DNA from: Crambe crambe
Lineage: Eukaryota > Porifera > Demospongiae > Poecilosclerida > Crambeidae
Assembly (NCBI GenBank): GCA_963924555.1
Contig: OZ004597.1
Location: 5,536,404-5,600,403 of the forward strand
Reading direction: 5' to 3'
Length of the DNA: 64,000 nucleotides
Shown: piece after piece, positions 1,733 through 64,000 of the stretch
Layout of the letters: each line of letters starts with the position of its first letter
Numbering within the stretch: position 1 is the first letter of the stretch
Notes under the pieces: model-generated
The model's input: only the letters and a program-made list of their open reading frames with translations
Databases searched by the model: none
Told to the model about the DNA's origin: nothing
Program-made: the position numbers and the translations under genes

Positions 1733-1891
1733 CTACAGCAGAATATCCTAGTTGTCTGCAGGCAACTCTAGCATCAGTGCTGCTCCATCCTTCATCACAC
1801 ACCGTGCTCCAGGTATTGTACTTGCATACCTCAACACGACCTTCTCGAGGTATGTTGCCATCCAACAATCTTATATCCCCTTCATCACAAC
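1733..1891 (-). CDS. Gene L SRCR domain 21, first half only
   Basis: One 159-nt exon, read leftward, matches R 62495-62653 ([25 protein letters not shown]). It ends CAGTAG before GTATGT. Its partner exon is not visible in 1-1732. Confidence 0.9.

Positions 1892-64000: not shown

Follow-up and report, generated by a model that had tools for sequence, protein, structure and literature searches.

The window, a 64,000-nt stretch of the Crambe crambe genome, contains the 5′ ends of two head-to-head genes (B and C), predicted to encode giant adhesion GPCRs, that belong to a cluster of five related genes. In the joint reading that we favor, at a probability of roughly 0.8, this cluster expanded by the tandem duplication of a gene block, its genes carry a domain block captured from bacteria, and the encoded proteins would act as surface-probing receptors. 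The window covers C20:5536404-5600403 on a contig of 6.34 Mb, and the assembly that we searched comprises 143.1 Mb in 119 contigs.

We characterized the window by comparing it with its own minus strand and by modeling its SRCR exons with two half-domain HMMs, which were seeded with one SRCR domain from the window, iterated, and gave 426 hits in 314 kb of DNA (the window and neighboring sequence). The self-comparison yielded a collinear inverted run of exon-sized matches at about 83–96% identity, extending from the outermost pair (1711-1907 with 62479-62677) to the innermost pair (26365-26534 with 31578-31747). The gene on the left arm, L, is gene B on the minus strand, and the gene on the right arm, R, is gene C on the plus strand. 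Their features are listed below in window positions, with SRCR exons taken from HMM hits and splice models.

1733-26527, minus strand: gene L (B), the first 41 of 136 SRCR half-domain exons, encoding domains 1–20 and half of domain 21
27444-27513, minus strand: signal-peptide exon of gene L, encoding 23 residues, with a phase-1 donor
27514-31024, no strand: 3.5-kb stretch between the L and R start codons
31025-31085, plus strand: signal-peptide exon of gene R, encoding 20 residues
31585-63920, plus strand: gene R (C), the first 45 of 136 SRCR half-domain exons

The first 41 SRCR exons of L and R pair in order, with equal lengths in 35 of the 41 pairs, and the largest difference between paired introns is 2,586 bp. 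The ordered, exon-for-exon pairing of the original prediction is therefore borne out by both the self-comparison and the HMM exon models; its exon count (41), start coordinate (1733) and intron difference (2.6 kb) were right, and both of the signal exons that it paired are present, encoding signal peptides that are 80% identical over 20 aligned residues. Its description of a 21-domain gene was wrong, because the window truncates two 68-domain genes. Its two giant receptors diverging from one center are supported as predictions, at a far larger size (68 SRCR domains and an adhesion-GPCR tail). The 3.5-kb stretch between the start codons is a possible candidate for a shared 5′ regulatory region, and no inverted match between its two halves was listed in the window self-comparison. 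We noticed by eye a GC-rich, hairpin-like inverted repeat (window 30621-30668) 5′ of the R start codon. Separately, palindromic, self-complementary MITE-like elements lie in L or R introns (window 50-311, 21418-21703, 52628-52965 and 39250-39345), with 82–95% likeness between the two arms of an element.

The HMM exon models extend the SRCR arrays of B and C well beyond the window and delineate the array of another gene, A, on the same contig.

C20:5356627-5423559, plus strand: SRCR train of gene A
C20:5562930-5492049, minus strand: SRCR train of gene B
C20:5567988-5648027, plus strand: SRCR train of gene C

Genes A and B each have 136 SRCR exons in which 5′ and 3′ halves strictly alternate, all in phase 1 and without a stop codon. 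Modeled in the same way, gene C has 135 exons, also without a stop codon, and we added its 136th exon by hand, which lacks a GT donor and has the border CAG-GC. With two exons per domain, all three genes encode 68 SRCR domains. The best match of an exon is its same-numbered counterpart in 132 of 136 cases from A to B, 133 of 136 from A to C and 134 of 136 from B to C, while same-numbered exons have equal lengths in 121 (A/B), 113 (A/C) and 110 (B/C) of the 136 cases. The B and C arms match over about 76 kb on the left side of the center, out to 5489879, and over about 84 kb on its right side, out to 5650150. Their exon-by-exon correspondence reaches the 7TM exons (near 5470340 in B and 5670174 in C), and the genes themselves run left to about C20:5.469 Mb (B) and right past C20:5.670 Mb (C).

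Domain-to-domain likeness within gene A peaks at lags that are multiples of three (3, 6, 9 and onward), with a mean identity of 0.575 at lag 3 compared to 0.47 at lags 1 and 2, so that the array was probably extended by three domains at a time. SRCR domains of group A have six cysteines and those of group B have eight. One half exon sufficed for a PF00530 match of 53.4 bits; 192 of 204 SRCR domain copies have eight cysteines, and the group-B cysteine that follows LG is, by eye, absent from the window's printed SRCR domains. On our own reading by eye, these domains appear to be of group A with one extra cysteine pair.

SRCR exon 136 is separated from the first tail exon by an intron of 80 bp in A, 144 bp in B and 144 bp in C. 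The tail then runs through Ig/HYR-like domains, CARDB repeats (in one 3.7-kb exon), RHS/YD, the Rhs-associated core, DUF7619, EGF, HRM, GAIN, a degenerate GPS and a 7TM, and a cytoplasmic tail after the 7TM is seen in A and B. We defined the tail by the segments conserved among A, B and C; all 43 segments of A were recovered in order in B, and C has 42 of them, its last one lying past the DNA examined. Exon sums predict a protein of about 11,000–11,700 amino acids, the exact length depending on exon borders.

Domains were scanned against Pfam and NCBIfam, with the 7TM chain spliced by hand from A exons. This chain matched 7tm_2 at 186.7 bits (cut-off 20.6), and the 7TM exons follow in order in B and C; the best PDB match of the 7TM is ADGRL3 (8.7e-43), to which it is nearest among solved structures. 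CARDB (107.7 bits), RHS_repeat (87 bits), Rhs_assc_core (60.7 bits) and DUF7619 (57.1 bits) were matched as well. GAIN scored 60.7 bits (cut-off 26.5) on an A peptide that included one B exon piece and 25.5 bits with fewer exons, the HRM scores straddle the cut-off of 26.2 (27.6 and 26.0), and the GPS alone scored 18 bits, under the cut-off of 22.5, with the HAT tripeptide of the degenerate GPS kept in A, B and C. The PKD/Big_13, HYR_4C, Ig/HYR and EGF matches are under the Pfam cut-offs. A large modular N-terminus is present behind the signal peptide, and B and C are predicted to be giant adhesion GPCRs in which an SRCR array is joined to an Rhs-type block and a 7TM.

The Rhs-type block has counterparts in bacteria. 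The YD part has the bacterial Rhs protein 7q97 as its best PDB match (6e-30), while two chains of a teneurin-like protein match at 44 bits (2e-10), with no other teneurin among the 13 PDB sequences listed. RHS repeats and an Rhs-associated core are both present, as in bacterial Rhs proteins. When the DUF7619 region was searched against bacterial and archaeal genomes, we found six loci, four of which match near the full query length at 40–44% identity. In a Chloroflexi MAG (L031), tblastn aligned a single frame of 2,173 amino acids to a linker resembling the CARDB exon's end, RHS, the core and DUF7619 in the animal order; Pfam also identified its RHS and DUF7619 and did not report CARDB itself. 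A Bacteroidota MAG (L032) has CARDB and then DUF7619. The shared order of linker, RHS, core and DUF7619 in one Chloroflexi reading frame suggests that a bacterial giant protein was the source of the CARDB-linker-RHS-core-DUF7619 block, which would then have been joined on one side to the SRCR array and on the other to a latrophilin-like 7TM. The bacterial counterparts differ in that no SRCR or 7TM was reported in them and that the L031 protein has a beta-helix N-terminus, while the animal block is split by introns.

Two other explanations of this architecture were weighed. The locus could hold neighboring genes, one for a secreted 68-SRCR protein and a separate one for an Rhs-containing adhesion GPCR, and the single-gene reading draws on the continuity of reading frames and splice sites; the short introns between the last SRCR exon and the first tail exon (80, 144 and 144 bp) and the absence of stop codons from the modeled SRCR exons of A, B and C leave a two-gene arrangement with a small chance. 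Alternatively, the RHS part could descend vertically from a teneurin relative, without any separate bacterial capture. Weak EGF_TEN/EGF_Teneurin matches adjoin the RHS part, and a choanoflagellate teneurin is reported in PMC6428715. However, bacterial Rhs proteins lead the PDB matches, with the teneurin-like chains at only 44 bits, one bacterial reading frame has the linker, RHS, core and DUF7619 in common with the animal genes, and sponges are reported, in PMC6428715 and PMC13018210, to have latrophilin-like receptors but no teneurins. Teneurins resemble the predicted proteins in bringing a bacterial-type RHS/YD segment and EGF into an animal receptor, but they have a type II layout with a C-terminal YD shell and a toxin-like GHH end, whereas here a signal peptide comes first, RHS is in the middle, the 7TM is C-terminal, and CARDB and DUF7619 are present. 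No GHH-type match was found in the tail pieces scanned, and among the PDB sequences the RHS part is closest to bacterial Rhs proteins rather than to teneurins. Vertical descent from a teneurin relative is accordingly given very little weight beside bacterial capture.

Searching the genome with the RHS exon gave five reported matches, each of them on C20, and a DUF7619 search recovers the same five genes, A′, A, B, C and D.

C20:5257966, minus strand: RHS exon of A′
C20:5434873, plus strand: RHS exon of A
C20:5481083, minus strand: RHS exon of B
C20:5658795, plus strand: RHS exon of C
C20:5721895, minus strand: RHS exon of D

Genes A′ and D are known from search hits alone, save for 16 SRCR exons of A′ that were modeled at the edge of the DNA examined, none of which has the same-numbered A exon as its best match. 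The D match to DUF7619 reads through stop codons, perhaps across an intron. Compared to the RHS exon of A, that of A′ is 70% identical and those of B, C and D are 93–94% identical. A genome search with the 7TM exons listed matches for A, B, C and D, and none near A′. Two apparently decayed partial 7TM copies lie between the tails of A and B (C20:5453801-5454963) and between the tails of C and D (5693159-5693770), both on the minus strand and each with one stop codon inside one exon match. The two copies are 92% alike, and their likeness is 87% to B and D and 83% to A and C. The spacer between A and B (5457901-5460900) matches the spacer between C and D (5696071-5699728) in the same direction at 92–96%, together with one 246-base piece in the opposite direction. 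Parts of the A/B spacer also recur on C17, one part being a dispersed repeat, and C17:479673-482480 is a copy of parts of this spacer at about 90%.

We quantified divergence over 128 of the 136 SRCR exons (8 dropped). The dS and dN values are 0.096 and 0.034 for A/B, 0.124 and 0.048 for A/C, and 0.123 and 0.051 for B/C. The dN/dS ratios are 0.36–0.41 across the three pairs; therefore, purifying selection prevails in the SRCR exons. The A/B dS is uneven, falling to 0.009 in exons 42–47 and 0.013 in exons 48–53 compared to 0.04–0.17 elsewhere. In a site-pattern test, from which 9 of the 136 exons were dropped, A and B share a run of 43 variable sites in exons 59–63 (permutation P ≤ 0.0005), and the longest A=C run is 8 sites (P = 0.03). 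No B/C conversion tract was found in the SRCR exons by permutation, the longest B=C run being 6 sites (P = 0.30). The dS troughs and the 43-site run support an A/B sequence exchange in a part that lies beyond the window, and not a B/C exchange. The arm-to-arm conversion that had been proposed for this locus thus finds no tract between L and R, while a partner for L (B) is indicated in copy A, about 130–150 kb away and outside the window.

The direct orientation in which the A/B and C/D spacers match suggests that an inverted pair was duplicated in tandem and that the head-to-head B/C pair in the window marks the junction. An ancestral tail-to-tail pair, in which A and B point toward each other across a decayed 7TM copy, would have been duplicated in tandem as C and D with the second decayed copy between them, so that B came to lie head to head with C. 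Conversion would have exchanged sequence between A and B after the block duplication. A simple inverted duplication, as originally proposed, is consequently not the best history, and the tandem-block junction fits the direct-orientation spacers better. It is rather unlikely that an inverted duplication of one gene made the B/C pair directly and that the likeness of the A/B and C/D spacers is secondary. The B and C arms are collinear for about 76–84 kb from the center, and A is closer to B than to C in SRCR exons 24–77, a pattern that the block history can accommodate only by appeal to conversion. Against a direct inversion, the decayed 7TM copy and pieces of the spacer are repeated at 92–96% without a change of direction, and the decayed copies' 87% likeness to B and D versus 83% to A and C is expected if B resembles D and A resembles C.

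There is only a very slim chance that two diverged haplotypes of one gene were joined in inverted orientation by the assembly, at either the B/C or the A/B center. Long collinear pieces of A and B align at 85–98.7%, with one 1.2-kb segment given as 100% identical, and 30.2% of A intron bases align between them. Yet A, B and C are distinct copies, D and A′ also lie on the same contig, no N occurs in the 314 kb examined, and B and C have a dS of 0.12 with only 14.5% of B intron bases aligning to C. If A and B were alleles, A′ would be the allele of C, but its RHS exon is 70% identical to that of A, where those of B, C and D reach 93–94%; moreover, the asymmetric A/B spacer reappears between C and D, oriented the same way. 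The five copies on one contig, the B/C divergence at a dN/dS of about 0.4, the gapless sequence, the low intron alignability and the twice-seen spacer make a misjoin unlikely and favor a true duplication, a choice that the original prediction had left undecided. Misjoined haplotypes are rejected for B/C and unlikely for A/B, for which a sequence-based judgment keeps a small doubt.

In adhesion GPCRs, an agonist tethered behind the GPS is released when the ectodomain is pulled or bound, and the 7TM is thereby activated. In the predicted receptors, the SRCR array would reach far from the cell and bind surfaces, with microbes, matrix or other cells as putative ligands. Force or binding on the ectodomain could then loosen the GAIN/GPS region and expose the tethered agonist, which would switch on G-protein signaling. 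The bacterial-type Rhs shell may serve as a rigid or ligand-binding stalk module.

Several known systems share parts of this architecture. SRCR repeats ahead of an adhesion-type 7TM are described for two Amphimedon adhesion GPCRs, Aq712029 and Aq715659, in PMC4302439. Aq715659 is called a latrophilin homologue in PMC6428715, and the 7TM here is nearest to ADGRL3 among solved structures. Unlike the Amphimedon pair, the genes here have 68 SRCR domains, CARDB, RHS/YD, an Rhs core and DUF7619; the legend to the domain figure of PMC4302439 mentions neither RHS nor CARDB. SRCR expansions are known from sponges and sea urchins, with 2–6 domains in one sponge cluster (PMC10855680). DMBT1 and other multi-SRCR proteins also have SRCR arrays and tandem gene clusters, whereas the array here is far longer than 2–6 domains, has a three-domain periodicity, is followed by a GPCR tail and belongs to genes of alternating orientation. 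ADGRV1/VLGR1, called the largest adhesion GPCR, shares the giant ectodomain but has other repeats. The human ADGRV1 protein has about 6,300 amino acids, and the genes here, at about 11,000 predicted amino acids, would encode a protein nearly twice as long if transcribed as one chain.

Teneurins are ligands of latrophilins, and a bacterial Rhs-type protein acquired in the animal lineage is regarded as the basis of teneurin-latrophilin signaling. Here, an apparently independent bacterial Rhs block lies inside a latrophilin-like receptor itself. No RHS/YD or CARDB in an adhesion GPCR was reported in the literature covered, from which bioRxiv preprints and most subscription papers were missing. 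A bolder proposal, tentative and on balance doubtful, is that a bacterial Rhs protein was captured by a non-bilaterian animal in an event separate from the origin of teneurins, and that this protein, a latrophilin-like receptor and 68 SRCR domains were united in a single chain, which would make these the largest known GPCRs. In that case the Rhs shell would cooperate with the 7TM in cis, much as teneurin pairs with latrophilin in trans, and conversion between mirrored copies would go on generating receptor variants in the alternating cluster. The locus also offers a system in which to test how tandem-inverted duplication and exchange in cis shape a large family of receptors, in an animal that is probably early-branching.

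Across the genome, we found at least 175 SRCR matches, along with 147 adhesion-type 7TM matches; this abundance, together with a silicatein-like motif on C15, suggests a demosponge. A second SRCR pair lies on C20 in direct orientation (4588394-4596060 and 4815263-4822923), with its members about 227 kb apart. The silicatein-like motif occurs in three copies (C15:872853, 877908 and 882963) that are exactly 5,055 bp apart, compared to 0 occurrences of the control.
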